A stretch of 64,000 bases of DNA from assembly GCA_029204225.1 (NCBI GenBank), contig CM055095.1:20885348-20949347 (forward strand), in the 5' to 3' direction. The notes beneath the pieces are model-generated. The model was not told where the DNA came from. It ran no database searches and saw nothing but the letters and a program-made list of their open reading frames with translations. This DNA comes from Diphasiastrum complanatum. Its lineage: Eukaryota; Streptophyta; Lycopodiopsida; Lycopodiales; Lycopodiaceae. A program made the position numbers and the translations under genes. Below, one piece after another: positions 1-37,068 of the stretch. The number at the start of each line of letters is the position of its first letter. The stretch's first letter is position 1.

Positions 1-2720
1 TACATTTTCTTGGCACATCTGCTCAAACAGTTGAAGAGTTTCCTTGCCAAGCCCATGCATAGCATATCCACCAAGCATTGCACTCCATGAGACGGTATCC
101 CGCATGAGCATGCCAGTGAAAATCCGGGAAGAATTTTGTATGCTACCACACTTGGCATACATGTCAATCAAGCAACTAAGCACGTAAATGTCTGAGTCCC
201 ATTTACTCTGAATGATCTTTGCATGTATTCGCTTGCCCTCTTCCAGTGCTGCTATACTAGCGCATGCACTTATAGCACCTATGAAGGTGAATCTGTCTGG
301 CTTCACTGGTTCTTGCTCCAGCTGTCTGAACAGCGTCAGTGCCTTCTTACCCTGTCCACACTTGACCAAACCCACTATCATGGTATTCCAAGAGATTAAA
401 TCATGCACAGGCATAGTCTTGAACACTCTAAAGGCATCATCAATGCTTTTGCATTTGAGATACATGTCAACCAAACAGCTCCCCACAACAATATCATCCA
501 TGTAGCCACTTCGAATGATTTGTGAATGAATCCATTTTCCTTCCTTTGAGGCCTTTTTCCCACTACATGCTTGTAACACAGCCACAAAGGTAATCCTATC
601 TGGTGCCACTGGTTCCTGCTCCATCTGTTGAAACAGTTCTAATGCTTTCTCCCCTTGTCCATAGTTGACAAAAGCCATGAGTATGGTGTTCCAAGACACA
701 ATATCACGTTGCCCCATATTGTTGAATACTCGCATGGCATCCTCGATTCTACCACATTTGGCATGCATGTCAATTAAGCTATTTTGCAGAGGAGTGTCTA
801 ACTCACATCTGCTGTGCACAAGTTCTGCATGGATATGTCTGCCTTCTTCCAAAGCACCTACCATGCCACTTGCCTTTAAGGCACCCATAAAGGTTACCAT
901 ATTTGGTTTTACCCCCTCTTGCTGCATCTGTAAATACAGTTGCAGTGATCTCTCAGCCTGTCTGCATTTGACACTGCCCATTATCATTATATTCCACGAC
1001 ACGACATCTTGTCTCTCCATGCTGTCAAACACCCTGCAAGCATCTATCAGGCTCTCGCATTTGGCATACATGTCAATTAGACAGTTTGTCAAAGATAAAT
1101 CAAGTTTCAACCCACTTCGAAGGATCTCTGCATGTAAGCGTCTGCCCTCTTCAAGTTTCCCTGCATTTGCACACGCATTTAACACACCCACAAAAGTTAT
1201 CTTGTCTGGTTGAACCTTAGCTTGCTGCATCTGTCTGAATAATTTCAACGCTCTTTCACCCTGCCCACATTTAGCATACCCTGAGATCATGGCATTCCAG
1301 GAGACAATGTCGTGTTCCCCCATTTGCTTGAACACCCTCCAAGCATCTTCTATGCTTCCACATTTGCAATACATTGTAACCAAGCAATTCAGCAAAAACA
1401 AATCTAGCATGCACTTGCGTGCTATAAGTACAGCATGAACCTGTTTGCCTTCTTCAAGTGCCTCTATGCCAGCACATGCATTTAAAACACCCACAAAAGT
1501 TAATCTATCTGGATCCACCTGCTTTAACTGCATCTGGTGAAACAATTTTATTGCTTTCTTCTCCTGACCACAATTGACATAACCCATAATCAAGGCATTC
1601 CATGATACCAGATCCTGAGTCTTCATGGTGTTGAATACTTGATTAGCCTTATCAACTTCACCACATTTTGCATACATATCAACAAGGCAGCTCGCCACAA
1701 AAACATCCGATTCACATCTAAGCCGAATGACATTTTTATGGACCTTCATGCCTTCTTCAAGAGTTTTGAGGCTAGCACAGGCCTTGAGAACCCAGACAAA
1801 AGTGAATTTGTCAGGATGAACTCCTCGACCGAGCATTTCTTGATACAATTTTAATGCCTTGAGATGTTCACCATTCTTTACAGTTTTTTCTATGGAGACA
1901 GTCCATGAGAAAGTACTCCTTTGTACTGTACCAGGAACCATGGCAGCGAGCTTTTGTTTGACCCACTGGGGAGTTGATGGTGAGCTGATCCAAAGGGCCT
2001 CCTGGGTCTTCTTGTGCTTAAAATCAGGGTAGCTTGCACTTCTCTAGTTACATGAAATCAAATTTCAGCTGATCCATCAGGACCCACTTCACAAAAATTG
2101 ATGAGGTAAAACCTAAACCCTAAGCCATTCTTTGACATTTCAGAGGCTAACAGGAATTTCACCTTGTAACAACTGTGATCCCACCACTGTGAGGTATCAG
2201 AAAAAAACTCCTGCCATAGTTGTTCTGCATTTCTTTTGCTGCCTTCTGCAAGAGAAGTCAAACAAACCATTTTTGCTCAAATTACTGATAGAGTGAAGAC
2301 ATATCTTCCATAATCAGAAGCAGCCTTCTACATACTGAGTCATTCACATAGGCACATACTCTTGGTTTCCCATTCCTAAGCCATAAAATCAAATTCAAAA
2401 ATAAAACCGATCCCATAAGGAGTGGCCAATACCAAACCCTAGCTTTGCACAAAAAAGACGGAAATGAGGGTAAACTTACTTGCAGATGAAGGGACAGGCG
2501 ATGAAAGCATTGAGCATTCCAAGTGCAGACGGGAAGCATAACATCTTTGATATGCCGCAGTTGGGATGATATCAAAAGAGGTGGAATTGAAATGTTTTTC
2601 CAGTAAGCTAGAGCTTGATGCAAGTAGGCATGCAGCAATGCTTCCAAGCTGCAAGCTGCCATGGCATAATTGCACATGATCTTCCACATAACAACTTCTC
2701 ATAAGCAGCTTGCCTTCCAT
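1..2720 (-). CDS. PDF motif-PLS-class PPR fusion protein, three exons, 3' end beyond window
   Basis: Exons run 2720-2480, 2245-2163 and 2043 to the left edge. Introns are 234 and 119 bp (donors GTAAGT and GTGAAA; acceptors TTGCAG and ACTAG), with phases 1 and 0 that keep one frame for 789 residues. An in-frame TAA lies 6 nt before the ATG, which fixes the start. Residues 1-80 are hydrophobic, Ser-rich and poor in acids at first, fitting an organelle leader. Residues 90-138 match the PDF motif of OSB proteins: LWQEFF, WWD, YPDFKHK, EALW, PQWVK. From about residue 153 come repeated PLS-type PPR units (DLVSWNALI, DRLTFVGVLNACA, LEEGKQVHA, VDMYAKCG) up to the edge. No OB-fold precedes the PDF motif. 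PLS PPR proteins bind organelle RNA, often for C-to-U editing; the PDF motif is known to bind single-stranded DNA. An E or DYW tail may follow outside the window. The splice model is read by eye, but motif spacing and phase both support it. Confidence 0.85.
1999..2222 (-). other. PDF motif split by a 119-bp intron
   Basis: Exon 2 ends in WWDHSCYK and exon 3 opens with RSASYPDFKHK. Joined, the spacing between WWD and YPDF equals that of OSB-family PDF motifs. Unspliced, the downstream part meets a TAG at the intron's 3' end (the acceptor itself), so the motif exists only in spliced mRNA. Pro114, Asp115 and Phe116 are the residues that name the motif. Confidence 0.82.
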
Positions 2721-2860: not shown

Positions 2861-3233
2861 GTCACCAGCCCTAAATGATGCTGTCACCAACCCTAAAAGG
2901 TCGTAGATTCATGATGGGGAGTATCACTTCAATTTTAGGGTGGATGTTATTAGTGCATATCAATGTTGGGTGGGTATATGGTGTGTCACCAGCCCTAAAT
3001 GATGCTGTCACCAACCCTAAAAGGTCGTAGATTCACGATGGGGAGTCATCACTTCAATTTTAGGGTGGATGTTATTAGTGCATATCAATGTTGGGTGGGT
3101 ATATGGGGTGTCACCAGCCCTAAATGATGTTGTCACCAACCCTAAAAGGTCGTAGATTCATTATGGGGAGTCATCACTTCAATTTTAGGGTGGATGTTAT
3201 TAGTGCATATCAATGTTGGGTGGGTATATGGGG
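2861..3233. repeat. Three-copy 124-125-bp tandem repeat
   Basis: Copies begin at 2861, 2985 and 3110 with GTCACCAGCCCTAAATGATG and are nearly identical. Each unit ends with the same 8-bp target site (GTGCATAT) and about 20 bp of the left terminus of the neighbouring hAT-type element, so the tandem copies include the junction between host DNA and transposon. The unit also carries AACCCTAAA, which resembles the telo-box found in plant promoters. It lies about 140 bp upstream of the start codon of the PDF-PPR gene. Confidence 0.9.
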
Positions 3234-3949
3234 TTATGGCTCTTATCAACCCGGGTATCATAACTCCTACCAGTCTGGTATGTAAAAATGAGATACCCTC
3301 CAATTAACCGGATGTCGTTGGTATTAGATCGGCGACACCATGGTCAAAACCAGACCAATGTGGTATAAAACTTCTAGATATCCCGGATATACTCGGACCA
3401 GGGCAAAATTGAGGGTACCACCACCCTATGCCCGAGTATCATATCTTTAAAAAAATTATTTTTATTACAAGCCTTAAAATAGCAAGCTGATGCTCCATTT
3501 TGGCTGGTCGCTTTTTAGGCCCCGTGCTCCATGCTCATCATCTGCACCTCATTGTGCTCATTGGTGGTTGATGCTCCATTCTCCATTTTGCTGGCTGGTC
3601 GCTTCTGAGGCTCCATGTTGCTCAAGGACTCATTGCTGAGATTCCACCTTCCACTTCTAGCCAGGTATTTGGTTTTGTTTCTCTCTCCTGACTCTTGACT
3701 TTGCTGGCCATTGATGCACTGCTGGTTGCTCGCTACTAAAACTTTCTAAAACTTTGTCAAAATTCTAACTATTTATACCTGGGTTTATGACCGGCTGGTA
3801 TTACCTTTGCAATACCAGTTTGAAGTTTGTAAATTATGTCTATGTCCATACCCGACTGGTAATAGAAAACTTATTTTCTTTAATATCATGGAGTACTCCA
3901 ATACCATGACTGGGCTGGTATTTAAAATAGTGATACCCACCCAACACTG
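3211..3949. mobile_element. Non-autonomous hAT-type element, 739 bp
   Basis: The ends are inverted 17-bp repeats, CAATGTTGGGTGGGTAT on the left and CAGTGTTGGGTGGGTAT read inward from the right, with one mismatch. They are flanked by 8-bp direct repeats, GTGCATAT (3203-3210) and GTGCATAC (3950-3957). An 8-bp target duplication with termini beginning CA is the hallmark of hAT elements. There is no transposase frame inside. The interior has its own imperfect duplication around a GCTGGTCGCTT sequence (about 3490-3625). Confidence 0.8.
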
Positions 3950-5700: not shown

Positions 5701-6241
5701 TGGATGCTCTGCCATCCAATGTTTCTATGTTCTCCCAGTAGGTTATACATCGAGAGATAAAGCCAATGGCCAAGTTGGTGCCAAATCATGGACCTTTAGA
5801 GGGTAAATTTGGAACCCTCCCCTCTCAAATAACTGCAGTCTCGAGTTCAATAAGATCTCAATTGCTTTGCAGTAGGTTGGTGAGATGGTTGCGGGAAACA
5901 ATCTTTTACGAAAATCTATCAAGAAAATGAGAGAATGCATGGGAAGAGAAGGGTCATGGGAACCTTCTCTTAGTTGTTGTGCCTAAGACACAAAAGGAAT
6001 TTTAGTTGAGATTCAAGCCAAAGAGTGGGAGTTTATCTTTTGGAATTTTAGTTAAGATTCAATGCCAAAGGGTGAGGCTCTCTCTCGTCTTGACTGATCG
6101 AGAGACAGCCCCACCGTTGGATTCATCTAGCAGCATTTGAGATTTTGCCACGTGTAATCACAAGCCATTGAACAATCTACAGGTGGCAGTTTAACACGTG
6201 GATGACATCCAAGTGAGCAGACGATCGATGGTCGCGTTAAG

Positions 6242-6262
6242 CCCCCCCCCCCCCCCCCCCCC
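6242..6262 (+). repeat. C21 homopolymer in the PPR leader
   Basis: Twenty-one consecutive C residues end directly at an ATG (6263). That ATG opens a three-codon frame (M-G-R-stop) whose TGA overlaps the ATG at 6271. The run could form an i-motif, or a G-quadruplex on the other strand, and its length may be imprecise in the assembly. Confidence 0.85.
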
Positions 6263-6270
6263 ATGGGGAG

Positions 6271-6435
6271 ATGAGCAAGAAAGAGAGAGAGGAGACAGAA
6301 AAGAAGAGGAGAATAGCGATGGCGGCATTGGTAACACAATGGGATGGCGCTCTCACGTTTCTCTCTCCTGTGGCTTCTCTCCCTCCCACAACCAGCAGGC
6401 ATGCTACCCCTCGCCATGCATTCCGACGTAATCAT

Positions 6436-6467
<32 letters not shown>

Positions 6468-8940
6468 GCAGCATTCTGAAACAATTAGGTCAACAACGTG
6501 TTTTCATTCAATCCCATCTAAGTTTGGAAGGCTGGGGTTTAGCAATTCCTTTCTAGGGTTGAGCAAATCCGCTGCTACGGCTGCTCGGCTGAAGTTTGAC
6601 ATCGCTGTTTGGGATTGGAGAGCGTCGATTTGTGAAGACGAAGCTGCTATTCCTGTCCCTTCGGAAGTGCAGAGCGGTTCTGTTGATGAGAACCCTAATT
6701 TAGCCAATGGGAAGGATTGTTTGGAAGCAGTAAATGGTGTGGAAGGTCAGATAGGTGGAGTCGAAAAACAGAAATCTGAGTCCCTTAATGGCACAATCAG
6801 CAATGTTGTCGAAGCTCGGGTTGGTGGCATCGAACAGCAGGAGTTGGAGTCCCTTAATGGCGCAAATAGCAAAGGTGTTGAAACTTCGATCGACGGCATG
6901 GAACAGCAGAAATTTGAGCCCCTTAATGGGGCAAATAGCAATGGTGTGGAAGCTCTGGACAGCAGCATCGAACAACAGAATTCTGAGTCTTCTAATGACG
7001 GCATGGAACAGCAGAAATCTGAGTCCCTTAATGGGGCAAATAGCAGTGGTGTGGAAGCTCTGGACAGCAGCATTGAACAACAGAATTCTGAGTCTTCTAA
7101 TGCTGGAACTAGCAGCCATGTTGCGACGCAGATGGACAAGTGCAAGGAAGTCCTGTGGCTGTTCAAGGATAGGAAAATTAAAGAAGCAATAGGCCTTTTG
7201 GGTTCGATTTCACATCTTGATGAATGGGTGGTTTCAACCTATGTGGAGCTTTTGCAAGACTGTGGCAAAGTAAAGGCGGTCACCGAGGGCAAAGAGCTTC
7301 ATGCTTTGGCTTTGAAACACGGATTTCTATCGAATGGGTTCATAGCAAGTACCCTCATCAGTACATATTGCAAGCTTGGAATGGTCCCCGAAGCACAGAA
7401 AATCTTTGATGGCATGCGTACACGTAGCGCCTTGTCGTGGAATGCATTGATTTCTGGATATGCTAAGCACGGCTACCACAAAGAAGCCGTAAGGCTTTAT
7501 CACAGCATGAAGGAGGAAGGGTTTCAACTCGATTCCGTTACATATATTTTGATGCTTAATTCATGCGCCAGCAAAGGGGATATTCAGCTTGGGAAGCAGA
7601 TTCACGCCGATGCTAGGAAATATGATTATGAATGTAAGCTTTGGGTTTCTACCGCTCTTCTAAATATGTACGTGAAATGCGGGGATTTGGAAGATGCACG
7701 TCGGGTTTTTGATAATATGACAAACAGGAATGTGATCACCTGGACTTCTATGATTTCTGGATATGCCAAGAGTGGCAATGGGCTCGAAGCCCTAAACCTT
7801 TACCAGCAGATGAAAAGGGCAGGTGTGAAAGCAACTGAGATCACTTTTCTGTTCCTTCTGAAAGCTTGTGCAAGCCTTGCAGAAATTGAGCAAGGCAAGC
7901 AGATACATGCTGATTTAATAAAAAGTGGGCTTAGTTTGAACGCATTTTTGGGGACAGCCCTCATAGACATGTACTCGAAGTGCGGGGATATGGGGAAGGC
8001 ACAAGAGGTGTTTGATAAAATCCCCACTCCCAATGTAGTTTCTTTTGCTGCAATGATTTCAGGACATTGTAAGAATGGTAATAACAAAGAAGCTATCAGA
8101 TGTTACATGCAAATGAAGCAGCAGGGCTTCAGGCCTAATGGAGTGACAATAGCCTCCGTCCTGCATGCTTGTGCCAATGCCGAGTCCCTGGAAGAGGGAC
8201 AGCAAATTCATGCCGATGCAGTCAGATATGGATTTAGTTCAGACGTCCGTGTTACAGCTGCCCTCGTGAACATGTATTCACAGTGTCATAGATTACAAGT
8301 TGCTCGTGAACTCTTTAATAGGATGAGTCATCAAAGTGTAGTTTCTTGGACTGCCATGATTGCTGCATATGCGAAAAATGCAGCTGGTGAAGAGGCTTTT
8401 AAGCTTTATGATCAAATGAAGAAGGAGAACATAAAGCCAGATGCAAGTACATTTGTCTTTGTTCTCCATGCTTGCGCTACTACGAGGAATCTAGAGATGG
8501 GAAAGCAGATTCATGCTGAAGTCCTAGAAGCTGGGCTTGAGTCTCATATTGCAGTTGGAAGTGCTCTTGTCGACATGTACTCCAAGTGTGGGAGTCTAGC
8601 TGACTCACGCCTTGTCTTTGACAGAATGCCCACTAAAAATATTTCTACATGGACTTCCATGATAGCAGGGTATGTTAAGCATGAGAATTCTGAGGAGGCA
8701 TTCCAACTCTACAGACAAATGAAATTGGAGGGTTTGAAGCCAGATGCATGGGTCTTTGTCTGTGTTTTGAATGCTTGTGTCCAGACTGGATCTTTGGAAT
8801 ATGGAAAAGAAGTTCATGAGGATATCCGTAAAGCTGGCTATGAGACTGACGCCACAGTCAAAAATTCATTGAGCATCATGTACTCCAAGTGTGAAAGTCC
8901 AGAGGCCAGGCAAGCACAACAAGCTCTGCAGCAGGCTTGA
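6271..8940 (+). CDS. PLS-class PPR protein without E/DYW tail, 889 aa
   Basis: A single-exon, organelle-type RNA-binding protein. The longest frame starts at 6271, but the ATG at 6319 (residue 17) has a better context and gives a typical targeting start (MAALVTQWDGALTF), so it may be the real one. Residues 54-67 are a His-Gln run. Residues about 150-290 are a low-complexity acidic linker with Gly-Glu-Gln-Asn-rich repeats. From about residue 310 to 880 there are PLS-type units with the usual phrases (SWNALISGYAKHG, GKQIHAD, ALLNMYVKCGDLEDARRVFD, SWTAMIAAYAKN). The protein ends soon after an S/L-type repeat (SIMYSKCESPEARQ) with no E, E+ or DYW domain, so if it takes part in editing it would need a partner in trans. 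It is divergent from the PDF-PPR gene, start codons about 3.55 kb apart. The family is certain; the RNA target is unknown. Confidence 0.93.
6431..6472 (+). repeat. CAT/CAG trinucleotide run coding His-Gln
   Basis: Consecutive ATC/CAT units pass into CAG units and encode four His and nine Gln in the N-terminal region of the PPR protein, between the presumed transit peptide and the linker. Such runs vary in length between alleles. Confidence 0.85.
6895..7104 (+). repeat. In-frame 105-bp duplication in the PPR linker
   Basis: Two copies of a 35-codon unit start at 6895 and 7000 (GMEQQKFEPLNGAN and GMEQQKSESLNGAN, each running to EQQNSESSN). More diverged units of the same kind lie upstream, so this linker grew by repeated in-frame duplication. 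It has no known fold. Confidence 0.85.
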
Positions 8941-31190: not shown

Positions 31191-32110
31191 GTACCCTTGA
31201 TGGTGGTCACCAGAGCACAGAAGCATAAAGAACCAGTAGCAGATTCAGTACCTGCTGATTCTATACCATTGAACGATATACCAATAGCATCTTCATGCAG
31301 AAAAACAAAGATATCAAGATATGAGGCAGTGGATTAAACATCTGCAAGAAGAAGAGGAACTTGAAGCCTCTAAAGCAACAATCGAAGTACGTTCTTCACC
31401 ATTGCAGCCACCAAGAAATTCACGTATAGATATGAATGATCAATTGCATCATCATGAAGAACCCTTCAAGATGACTGAATCTGAAGCGCCGCAAACAGAA
31501 TTGTTCATGAATATTTTGTCTCGTAAGATCAATATTTCATTGGGAGAGTTCCTGAACTTGGTGCCAAAGGCAAAAGAAGTCTTAGCGCAAAAGTTAGCTC
31601 AAGTAGAACCAGAAGTCCATCAAGAGCCACTTTTTTGTGCTGGATTTGAAGAATCTAATGAAGTCCTCCATGTCGGAGCCACTTGGGAAAGTGAACAAAA
31701 GAATATCACTCTGTCGATGCAACATAGACAATTTCCTAAGAAAGCAGCTATGATAGATGGCGGTTCAGGAGTTAACCTAATATCTACAAAGCTATGTGCG
31801 AAATGGGGCCCTACAAAATGGGGCCTGCAACTTTTCCCATTAAGCTAGCTGATCAAACGATAGTTCGTCCACAAAGAATGGTTGAAGATATACCTGTAAG
31901 AATTGTGGGAGTATAGTTCGTCATTACTTTTGTAGTAATGGACTTACCAGAAGCACCAAATGTCTACCGAGTCCTATTGGGACGTCCATGGTTACGAGTT
32001 GCACAAGTGATTCATAACTGGGGTACCGGGAACATCACTTTTGAAAATCGTGAACGTGCAGTCAAAGTTGATCCTGCAACGTGGACTATCAAACCAGTGG
32101 TTTAAAAAGA
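31191..32110 (+). pseudogene. Ty3/gypsy gag-protease region
   Basis: The frame from 31321 reaches a retropepsin-like motif (AAMIDGGSGVNLIS; Asp present, Gly-Gly in place of Ser-Gly at the active site) at about 31735-31790. A frameshift near 31835 moves the reading to another frame (IKLADQTIV, then LLGRPWLR near 31975). In-frame stops lie near 31917 and 32104. It leads into the reverse transcriptase part. Confidence 0.7.
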
Positions 32111-32162
32111 AGATGATGATTCATCAACAACGGATCATACTTGTGACCGACTAGAGAAAAAT

Positions 32163-34133
32163 TTGGGAGTTCATTACGATTCTCAAACGGATACTGTCAA
32201 CTGGAATGAAGCTCTTGCAACGATTGATTGTACAGCAGGATATATGTGTCAACAAGATAATCAGTCAGATTTGAGTGAGATTTCATTATTAGATCGAACT
32301 TTGGATACACCGATCACATTTCCATTGAATTTGTTGAATGTAGCTTGGATATCAACGGAACCTATACCAGATCCGATTGAAGATGACCTCATACCTGTCA
32401 GTCATGCCTTGACTTATGATGACAATGCAGAACTTACTGATGAGCATATTCTCAATCATATGGATCCGACTAGATTTGGAGTGCGTAATGTTCCTGATGA
32501 ACCAACAATAAAATCGTCCAAAGTAGTTATATTAAAGGAAGATAGGATCACAGGATCAATGACGAAGAAACAAGCCAAGCGACATTATAATACGGTCTTG
32601 AAATGGGAAAATCCTCCTCAAAAGATTGATTTAGGAAATGTGCCACCCTTATTGGATAAAGACAAAGGGAAAGTCAAGGATGATTCTACAAGTCAAAATT
32701 CTAGCAAGACATCATCGCCTCGGAAGTCATCACCTCCACGATCAATTCTTGCTAAAAAGACTAAGCGAAGATCCAAGACAAATCCTTTTGAAAGAGAACA
32801 AGCAAATATAGTCCAACATGATATGCCTGAGCATTTTAAACGTTATACACTGGATGATGTGGTTATCATATTACCTAAAGCGCATCGCGAACCTGAAGAA
32901 CACATGCCAGATTCAAAAGATGTCTACGATGGCCCAACTAGAACATAGCCAATGAATCTTGCTGAACCAGAAGAACCGGAAAAGATTGTACAAGTTGGAT
33001 CACAACTTAATCCTGAACAGTATCAAGCACTTCGCATGTTACTTATTAAGTATCAAGATTGCTTTGCATGGACTTATCAAGATCTGAAGGGTATTTCGAC
33101 GTCAGTTATTGAACATACCATACCTTTACTACCTGATGCAGTTCCAAAGGTTACAAAATTCTATCACTATAATCCTAATGTTGCGGATCTGATAAAGAAA
33201 GAACTTCAAAGATTGCTTGACGCCGATTTCATTTATGAGATCGAGCATACCGAATGGATCTCACTGATTATCATTGTTCCTAAGAAGAATGGGAAATTGA
33301 GAATCTGTGTGAATATCAAGGCTTTGAACAAAGTGACGTGGAAGGATCGCTTTATGTTACCTTTTACAAAAAGCATCTTGGATCGCCTTGCTGGAGCGGA
33401 AGCTTATAGTTTCTTGGATGGATTTAGTGGTTACAACCAGGTTAAGATTGCACATGCAGATCGTCATAAAACCGCTTTTGCAACAGAATGGGACACCTAT
33501 GCTTACAAAGTTATGTCGTTTGGACTCTGTAATACACAAAGTTCATTCCAAAGAGTAATGCAATTTGCTTTTAAAGATTATCTATAGAAATTTCTTGAAA
33601 TTTACTTGGATGACCTGGGAGTCCATAGTTCAGATGCAGACCACCTGGATCGATTGGAGAAAGTATTTGAAAGATGCCGCAAATATCAAATTTCTCTAAA
33701 TCCAAAAAAATGCCAGATATGGGTTTCTCACGGAGTTGTGCTTGGGCATGTGATATCGAGACATGGTATTGCCACAGATTATTCTAAAATCAAGATTATT
33801 ATGGAATTTCCACCGCCAACAACGATTCGTGGAGTTTATGTGTTTATGGGTCATGCGAACTACTATCGCATTTTTACTATCTTCTTTGCGGATTTAGCAC
33901 GACCTATATACAAACTAACTATTGTTCCTGTTTGGATAGTAGAGGCGTTAGAAGCCTTTGGAAAATTAAAAAAAGGCATTAACTTCAGCACTAATCCTAC
34001 GTTCTCCATATTGGACGATTGAATTTCATGTTCACACGGATGCCTCGAAATATGCCATTGGATCAGTTTTGATGTAGCCAAGTGATTATAAGAAAGATTA
34101 TCCTATATGATTTGCAAACAGTCAAGAAAAGTG
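32163..34133 (+). pseudogene. Ty3/gypsy reverse transcriptase-RNase H region
   Basis: One frame runs from 32163 to 34022 with just two stops (32946, 33585). After a charged linker, the reverse transcriptase starts near 33000, with IIIVPKKNGKLRICVN, YSFLDGFSGYNQ, FATEW and the catalytic YLDD (IYLDDLGVHSS) just after the second stop. LGHVIS and a decayed HTDASKYAIG RNase H start follow to about 34075. Sequence ends abruptly at about 34133, where an opposite-strand copia begins. No integrase or LTR of this element is seen. Confidence 0.85.
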
Positions 34134-35800
34134 TTAAGTCAACAATACCATGATCTTGGTGCTTGCTTTAGTCCATAGAGACTTTTGAAGAGCAAGCAAA
34201 CTTTGGTCTTGTCTTGGATGAACCCAAGGGGTTGATCCATATAAATTTCTTCTTCTAGATATCCATTTAAAAATGCATTAGAGACATCTAGTTGAAAAAC
34301 TTGCCATTTGAAAAAACAAGCAATAGAAATAATGATTCGAATTGATACCATCTTTGCAACTGGAGCAAAAGTCTCCTCATAATCAAGTCCATAAACTAGC
34401 TTGAGCAAAACCCTTTGCACAAAGCCTTGCCTTATACTTGCTGATTGTGCCATCTTGATAATATTTAATTCAAAAAAACCATTTGCAACCAATGGTGTGC
34501 TTGTTGGATAGAAGATCCACAAGCTCCTATGTCTTGTTGGCAATCAATGCATCATATTCCTCATGGCTAGAAACCATTCTTTTGAATTGAGTGCATCATA
34601 TACATCCTTTGGCTCCTCATGTGAAACAAAATAAGCATAATCAGTGGAGTTGAGTTCCACATGCTTGCCTTTATCTCCATATGTAAGCCTCTTAGGTTGA
34701 GATCTTTCTCTTTGTGATCTCTTTGGTGAAAAAATTCGAGGTGACTCCTCCTCAATTCTTGGCCCCATCTCTCCATGATAATCTTAAAGGATGATGGTAG
34801 GAGAATCCTTTTGAGAATCTTTGATCTCGGTCTCATCAAAGATGTCTTTCTGATTCTCATGGAAAATAACATCCCTACACTCAATTGTAACTGAGGTAGA
34901 GGAAACATAACTTTTGTATGCCTTCTTGTTGCATGAGTATCCAACCATGATCCCTTTGACTGAGTTTGGATCATCTCTTTTCCTTGTTTCCAAGGGTACA
35001 CAAACAAAGCAAGCACATCCAAAAACTCTAAGGTGATCAACCTTAGGTTTCTTCTTGAACAAGACTTCATATGGTGATCTTCCTAAAAGCACATTGTGAG
35101 GTAATCTATTGCACAATTAATTGCTTCTCCCCAATATTCAATAGGCAAAGAAGCTTCAACACGAATTGCTTTAGCACATTCACATAGAGATCAAATTTTT
35201 CTTTCAGCAACTCCATTTTGAGATGGAGAATAAGCACAAGAAAACTCTCTCTTAATCCCTTCAACCTCACAATAATCTGTTGGAGATGTATTTACCTCCT
35301 CCATCACATCTTAAAGCTTTGACTTTGAAAGAAAATTGTTTCTCAACATAAGCTTTGAAGACTAGGAAGTGTTCAAATACCATAGCTTTTGAAGAAAGTA
35401 GGTACAACCAAGTATATCCTGTAAAATCATCAATGAAGGTAACAAAACAAGTTGCACCACCAATACTTTTTGAGGGTGAACATCCAAGTGAATTAATTTC
35501 AAAGGATGAGAAGTCTTAATAGAAGACTTTTGATATGGCTTTCTATGTGATTTTGCAATAGCACAAGTCTCACAAGGCTTGATATCCTTGGAAAGTGATG
35601 TTGGAAGTCCAATAGCCTTATCATTCTTGATCATAGAAAGCATAGGCTTATAGTTAGGATGCCCCAACCTTCTATGCCATAACTCTTCCTTAGACATAAG
35701 AGCAATTTCACAAAAGTTTGCATTTTCATAAGAATTTAACTTGAAAATTCCACCATATTTAGATCCATTAGCTAGGATCTCATTTTCTTGATAAAGCAAG
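34134..35800 (-). pseudogene. Copia copy B: integrase and reverse transcriptase part
   Basis: Reading on the minus strand, the HHCC region reads LWHRRLGHPN and CETCAIAKSHR (35680-35540). It is followed by broken integrase core frames (NGVAER near 35200) and PYEVLFKKKPKVDHLRVFG (near 35050). The reverse transcriptase start has YEETFAPVAK, WQVFQLDVSNAFLNG and LYGLKQAPRSW, and stops dead at 34139, before the YxDD motif. Several frameshifts and stops are present. The truncation point is the junction with the gypsy relic. Confidence 0.85.
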
Positions 35801-36416
35801 TATTAAAATTGAATTTTACATCACAACCACAATCAAGCAATTTTCCAACAATTATGAAGTTCTTTGTAAGCTTAGGAACAAAAAGAACATTGGAAAGTGA
35901 TAGAACTTTAGAAGAAGCAAGTTTTAATGAAATGTTGCCAATTCGTTCAATACAGCATTCATGATCATTTGCAGTATAAATAGATCTTTTAAGTCCTTTA
36001 TAAGGTACAATAGAGTCAAAAGACTCCTTTGAACAACACATATGTGAAGAGGCTCCACTATCGATGTACCAAGCTCCATCTTTCTTGAATTCAGGGTGTT
36101 GAAGAAAAGCTTGACACCATGAGTGATCCTTCTCCATCACTTGCAATAAAGTCTTCTTCTTTCTCATTAGAGAGATTTGCTTGTTTGAGTTGATTTTTCT
36201 TTTTGAAGCAATTAGAGACATAGTGTCCCTTCTTGCCACAAAAGAAACACTTGACTTTCTTCTTCTTGGTCTTTGAAGTAGAAGGATGAGTTGAGTCATA
36301 CTCTTCACCATCTTTGTCTTTGTTCTTGGCTTTGTCTTTGTTGAAAGCTTGAGAAAACTGGTCCTTGCTCCTCCCTTTATGCTTGTCCTTGACAAAGAGT
36401 GCTTTGTCACTTCCAA
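35772..36416 (-). pseudogene. Copia copy B: protease region
   Basis: The frame holds WYIDSGASSHM, the intact aspartic protease motif of copia, followed by LSNVLFVPKLTKN. It overlaps the gag frame above it in a different phase, so a frameshift separates gag from protease. In active copia elements these are normally one frame. Confidence 0.8.
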
Positions 36417-37068
36417 TATGCTCGAGTTTGTTCATCCTAGAAAGTTTGTAACTTTGCCTTGCTTCTAAAGAGATGAGAATTCCTTGAAGAGTTTCCAAAT
36501 TGGGCAACTCCTCCTTTATGGCAAAGGATTGAACAAGATTATCATAGTCTTCTTTTAAGCCATTTAGAATGACTTGTACTAGCTCATCTTGATTGATTGT
36601 GACACCAACACAAGCAAGCTCCCTATGAAGATCTTTTACTCTCAGAACATAATTTGATGCACTCTCCTCACTTCTTTGTTGAAAGATCTGATTTCTAAGA
36701 GTGAGTATTCTAGAAGTGTTCTTAGCTTTATAGATGGACTTGAGTGCATCCCAAGCTTCTTTAGCAATGGTGCAAGATCCAATTTCTCTCAGAATGTCAT
36801 TAGAGACATTCATTTTAATGAAGTGTAGAACCATTCTAGCTCTCTTCCTATACTTTGGTGTTTCAAGCTGTGCTGGAGGCTCCTCCTCAATACCAAGTAC
36901 TATGTCCATAACATCCTGGAGTATAAGAACTGACTCCATTCTAACCTTCCATATTGAGTAATCGGAGGTACTTATTCTTTCACTTGGTTCTAAGAGATAT
37001 CCTCCTACAGGTGCCATATTGTGAAGACTTTTTGTTATTGGACAATTATATGTTTGAGCTTGTTCCAA
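36091..37068 (-). CDS. Copia copy B: gag, 325 aa, open frame
   Basis: This is the best-preserved retroelement frame here. Gag forms the particle that packages the element's RNA. Features in order are YSIWKVRMESVL (about residues 37-48), the conserved YRKRARMVLHFIKMNVSND and EAWDALKSIY (UBN2-type gag), a Lys-rich stretch, and the zinc knuckle CFFCGKKGHYVSNC (CX2CX4HX4C) near residue 275. The start ATG is about 720 bp downstream of the primer site. The frame is open but the downstream pol is broken, so it can act only in trans if it is expressed. Confidence 0.85.
   Translation of the reverse strand: MEQAQTYNCPITKSLHNMAPVGGYLLEPSERISTSDYSIWKVRMESVLILQDVMDIVLGIEEEPPAQLETPKYRKRARMVLHFIKMNVSNDILREIGSCTIAKEAWDALKSIYKAKNTSRILTLRNQIFQQRSEESASNYVLRVKDLHRELACVGVTINQDELVQVILNGLKEDYDNLVQSFAIKEELPNLETLQGILISLEARQSYKLSRMNKLEHIGSDKALFVKDKHKGRSKDQFSQAFNKDKAKNKDKDGEEYDSTHPSTSKTKKKKVKCFFCGKKGHYVSNCFKKKNQLKQANLSNEKEEDFIASDGEGSLMVSSFSSTP

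Follow-up and report, generated by a model that had tools for sequence, protein, structure and literature searches.

The PDF-PPR gene at the edge of the window (the whole stretch of 64,000 nucleotides of Diphasiastrum complanatum DNA analyzed here, part of contig 4 of the assembly) belongs to a large family encoded by this genome. The family appears to be an established class of editing factor rather than an isolated case, given that many related genes, some of them complete RNA-editing enzymes, show the same join. We consider it about evenly balanced whether these proteins, a large nuclear family that combines PDF modules, a PPR array and, in intact members, a DYW domain, are organelle RNA-editing factors carrying an extra clamp for single strands.

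The first-pass annotation had joined three exons in frame, with phases 1 and 0, into one predicted protein with a PDF-type module and a PLS-class PPR array. Both claims are borne out, the join by 789 stop-free codons up to the window edge and the architecture by the in-frame splice and the Pfam PPR_2 stretches. The gene is read from the minus strand. Exon 1 (2720-2480), placed by the in-frame splice in phase 1, encodes a leader with a putative start and a possible targeting peptide, and is followed by intron 1 (2479-2246; 234 bases, GT-AG, GTAAGT..GCAG). Exon 2 (2245-2163) encodes the first half of the PDF module (LWQEFFSDTSQWWDHSCYK), as indicated by the in-frame splice and by the presence of the same half in relatives, and intron 2 (2162-2044; 119 bases, GTGAAA..CTAG) splits the module. 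The start of exon 3 (2043-1939) encodes the second half (RSASYPDFKHKKTQEALWISSPSTPQWVKQKLAAM), identified from the translation and from a control over the window, in which DNA coding for PDFKHK, with at most one mismatch, occurs once against 0.03 occurrences expected. The rest of exon 3 (1938-1, and then beyond the window) encodes a short link and the PLS-class PPR array, detected by Pfam as 12 stretches of PF13041 (PPR_2; E 1.7e-109), with the P-L-S order of the repeats read by eye from the translation; within the first 152 residues the Pfam scan gave no match. The start in exon 1 and the organelle presequence are only putative, because no convincing upstream match to this exon was found in 20 relatives and because its 80 residues include 6 acidic against 5 basic ones. 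A version of exon 1 that begins at the ATG at 2662 was rejected, as it is out of frame with exon 2, whereas the frame from 2720 joins cleanly.

The reading frame continues for about 366 bases past the window edge to a stop, giving a protein of 911 residues with an E1-like end. A C-terminal DYW deaminase is absent from this gene; a scrap of DYW sequence (like GDCHxxTKF) lies about 250 bases after the stop, with a best E of 0.001 when one 3.2-kb piece was searched. Because the protein ends after E1-like sequence and only this scrap is found downstream, the DYW domain of the window gene is, as read from the DNA, decayed or lost. Alignments also show that two positions of the module that hardly vary in the family are changed in the window copy, with T for P and S for R. 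Elsewhere in the window, a 125-base tandem repeat in three copies (2861-3234; 97% matches) lies immediately upstream of the PDF-PPR gene, and a second PPR gene, 3.5 kb away on the opposite strand (6241-8937, plus strand), has an open frame of 899 residues whose start is rich in serine and histidine with charged repeats and in which no PDF motif pattern was found. Open frames at about 31288-33584 (plus strand) and 35775-37068 (minus strand) resemble, by eye, pieces of retrotransposon gag-pol.

DNA coding for YPDFKHK is found at 149 places in the genome assembly (1.745 Gb in 5176 contigs), and the first half of the module, searched as QWWD[N/H]R, at 266, with no occurrence of either reversed control, while PDF[K/E]HK is found at 423 places against 16 for its control; these counts include allelic or duplicated copies, many rows being paired with equal scores, partly on small contigs. 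With a query that runs from the module into the first repeats, PDF and PPR are spanned in one stretch by at least 81 of the 150 scored matches, a lower bound in that 150 of 2357 candidates were scored. These 81, of which the window gene is one, include 55 that are distinct by score and range and 2 with stops. A query from a sister subfamily gave at least 154 matches, with 150 of 2128 candidates scored. CCTGATTTTGAGCACAA also recurs at many places (on C1 and others, for example C1:82001836), with the other half of the motif absent from the lists, and these copies are perhaps an unrelated repeat. We opened 23 loci, namely the first 20 listed YPDFKHK places, the nearest relative of the window gene (L091) and two multi-unit loci (L092 and L093). 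In all 23, which were chosen for the motif and include two pairs of near-copies (L014/L018 and L022/L023), the motif is followed, 76-306 bases on, by a PPR match on the same strand and preceded, at 172-366 bases, by the first half of the module. The number of PDF units per opened locus, counted as copies of the first half, is one to three. The possibility that the window gene is a lone chimera or an assembly artefact was rejected, since the same split module and the same join are present in 23 of the 23 opened loci. L092 and L093, considered as candidate OSB genes with several units, were rejected as such, since both have PPR arrays.

The intron just before YPDFKHK, which splits the module in the window gene, is found in the relatives as well, judging from the sequence just upstream. 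The seam between module and array differs. In the window gene it carries no intron; in the sister subfamily, a second intron of 105-143 bases, in phase 2, lies between the module and the PPR array (10 of 11 loci by script, with L015 seen by eye), with a GT donor in 9 of the 10 measured loci, the exception being L022. Hence the placement of the seam inside exon 3, made in the first-pass annotation, stands for the window gene, but the accompanying remark that simple exon shuffling at an intron had not produced it fails for the family, because the sister subfamily has an intron at this very point. Either loss or gain of the seam intron would explain the difference. The sister subfamily has a conserved TGA in frame between its PDF and PPR parts. 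That it marks broken genes was considered and rejected, because the TGA lies within the conserved-ended intron.

The link to the DYW deaminase is seen from both sides. DYW marks are present in 15 of the 23 opened loci (L092 and L093 having been opened over 4 kb only, so that they may be cut), and stop-free frames run from YPDFKHK to DYW in L014, L015, L017, L018 and L025, as well as in L091, the nearest relative found. Conversely, a PDF pattern lies within 6 kb upstream, on the same strand, of 39 of the 63 listed DYW matches on contigs 1-10 (drawn from the best 150 of 472 candidates, and thus best-scoring and not random), against 0 of 63 in each of three shifts and 1 of 63 on the opposite strand. 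On contigs 1-5, those for which the lists of PDF places are complete, the figure is 18 of the 24 listed DYW matches, and 0 after shifting. Protein matches made by eye add five (C3:18946218, C4:64297822, C7:33142577, C7:33582882 and C8:11044902), bringing the totals to 44 of 63 and 20 of 24. By the strict patterns, however, 24 of the 63 listed DYW matches have no PDF, and beyond the by-eye additions the remaining ones have none either; because of these matches, the PDF module is not needed for editing. PPR-DYW proteins of one moss are described as editing by themselves in E. coli (PMC6397227). In ferns that have many DYW-less PLS proteins, DYW donors have been suggested to act in trans (PMC12548569), and the window copy, itself without DYW, would either need a DYW partner in trans or be on its way to loss. 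In this context the PDF modules could be docking or assembly surfaces, for example joining PLS-only members with DYW members. The proposal made for ferns speaks for such contacts, as do the occurrence of one to three units and the fact that the module is common to members with and without DYW, but the best described role of the motif is the binding of ssDNA, and we find a protein-contact role doubtful.

A tree built from 26 plant units and 2 phage units, with 13 of its 25 inner branches weak, groups the units according to their position. The first units of genes with three units fall into a single group, with support of 99/97, and the position labels require 4 changes against a minimum of 3, with an average of 12.0 in shuffles. 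The tandem array is therefore older than the spread of the family. As the tree is compatible with a single vertical descent of the units, the module might have come from one founding fusion and, having no role of its own, have been carried along as the PPR family expanded. The window copy, which has lost the DYW domain and the two nearly invariant residues, would then be a decaying example, and stops and frame breaks in some copies would agree with this. We regard such a history as improbable, because the PDF module is under purifying selection also outside the searched codons. With the YPDFKHK codons left out, the median dN/dS of the module is 0.29 in the sister subfamily (28 of 28 pairs) and 0.31 in the group of the window gene (27 of 28 pairs), and the corresponding values for the PPR part are 0.34 (28 of 28 pairs) and 0.20 (16 of 28 pairs, with dS near saturation). 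In the group of the window gene, the one with larger divergence, the PDF part is thus less constrained than the PPR part (0.31 vs 0.20). Between the window gene and its nearest relative, dN is 0.26 and dS 2.1 for the second half of the module, and dN is 0.34 and dS 2.6 for the PPR part, a comparison that shows past constraint only, because dS is saturated.

Likely relatives of the module were found in phages. A scan of viral contigs gave one match, to a protein of 182 residues that adjoins ORFs resembling, by eye, a replicative helicase and a primase. A broader pattern matched 48 viral contigs, with a Cys after PD[FY]K in 44 and none in 4; the pattern fixes the core, so that the identity of the core among these 48 phage loci is by construction and only the flanks are independent. 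The phage protein of L064, one of the four without the Cys, matches a plant unit over 55 residues, including both flanks, with an E of 4e-13 in a single comparison. A comparison of profiles of the plant and phage modules gave a probability of 98.3 and an E of 2e-14 over 37 columns, values that are inflated by the pattern-based choice. A Pfam scan of five phage proteins gave a match for three, two to ERF and one to a Rad52-type domain. A zinc ribbon, C..C...DNR..K.NPKAPDFKC, was observed behind ERF or Rad52-type ssDNA-annealing domains in 3 of the 5 scanned proteins (viral contigs such as L045, L058 and L089). The phage tails and the plant module have in common the core D-N-R..K..N-P-K-x-P-D-F-K, with L/I-W after it; the phage zinc-ribbon module has paired cysteines and no PPR partner was seen for it, whereas the plant units are without such cysteines. 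At the level of sequence, the plant module resembles a cysteine-less form of the zinc ribbon found on phage proteins, some of them ssDNA-annealing. Among prokaryote contigs, 0 of 54 stretches were confirmed as a relative of the module, and searches with the module against Pfam and PHROGs gave no match, the two PHROGs scans covering six protein inputs in all. Named phages searched by tblastn likewise gave no match to the module, and the best hit in the PDB had an E of 1, to a lectin, and is due to chance.

How might such proteins act? In their architecture, one to three PDF modules stand before a PLS-class PPR array, and intact members end in a DYW cytidine deaminase; we propose that they work in mitochondria or plastids. 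The array would select the RNA site and the DYW domain would deaminate the target C. The PDF modules, being N-terminal, would lie towards the 5-prime side of the bound RNA and may add a non-sequence-specific grip on single-stranded nucleic acid, strengthening or positioning the binding. The PDF motif of AtOSB1 is described as sufficient for ssDNA binding (PMC6963530), and OSB1 and OSB2 as preferring ssDNA over dsDNA or RNA (PMC4166229); given this preference, an RNA clamp fits poorly. The main rival to the clamp, which we hold to be unlikely though worth serious thought, is that the PDF modules keep the factor attached to single-stranded DNA of the organelle, for instance at transcription bubbles or R-loops, and that nascent RNA would consequently be edited during transcription; this is close to the idea in the first-pass annotation of one protein touching both organelle DNA and RNA. 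The published ssDNA preference and the binding of ssDNA by the motif alone argue for a hold on DNA, and so does the presence of ERF and Rad52-type ssDNA-annealing proteins among the phage proteins with a related module; no OB-fold, however, lies beside the plant module, and the sequence is silent as to which molecule the module binds. Our data do not separate the clamp from a hold on DNA.

In any event, the wider proposition can be made, tentatively and in the expectation that it may well prove wrong, that a large share, perhaps most, of the DYW editing factors of this lineage carry one to three single-strand-binding modules related to a tail found on phage recombination proteins. These modules would couple RNA editing to nascent transcripts or to the DNA of the organelle, and the PDF motif would have existed before plants and been reused in making a new class of editing factor. 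If so, organelle editing factors would be more than PPR and DYW, one lineage having attached a nucleic-acid-binding module of DNA maintenance to many of them. A physical coupling of editing to organelle DNA or to transcription would become testable, and a natural way to strengthen PPR binding would be suggested. Moreover, a likely phage relative would emerge for the PDF motif, which is described as occurring in green plants only (PMC4166229).

No report of a PDF-PPR fusion was found in the open-access literature searched, the subscription PPR surveys likeliest to mention one being outside that scope, and the passages of a review that names the PDF motif, pentatricopeptide and single-stranded DNA-binding together describe no such fusion. 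The closest known systems share parts of the architecture. With OSB proteins, here by description only, the plant module has in common a length of about 50 residues, an invariant Pro-Asp-Phe and an occurrence in one to three copies, and it is from published descriptions that it is taken to be the OSB PDF motif. Unlike in OSB proteins, the module is N-terminal and not C-terminal, a PPR array and in many cases a DYW domain come after it, and no OB-fold was seen: Pfam gave no match to an SSB-like OB-fold before the module in the window protein, where a diverged one could be missed, and of the 3 genomic matches to PF00436 none shows the motif inside the 3.2-kb loci. Because no OB-fold was seen, the PDF-PPR proteins are not typical OSB proteins, and while the assignment to the PDF type made in the first-pass annotation probably holds, the functions of OSB proteins cannot simply be carried over. 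With PLS-class PPR editing factors that have E and DYW domains, the family shares the P-L-S repeats (their order read by eye), an E1-like end and, in many members, the DYW deaminase; it differs from them in the PDF units before the array, and the window member in ending after E1. Designer PPR proteins, finally, are described as following the same rules when they bind ssDNA, though their affinity is impaired (PMC13041630); in these it is the array itself that binds ssDNA, whereas in the PDF-PPR family a separate module is attached.
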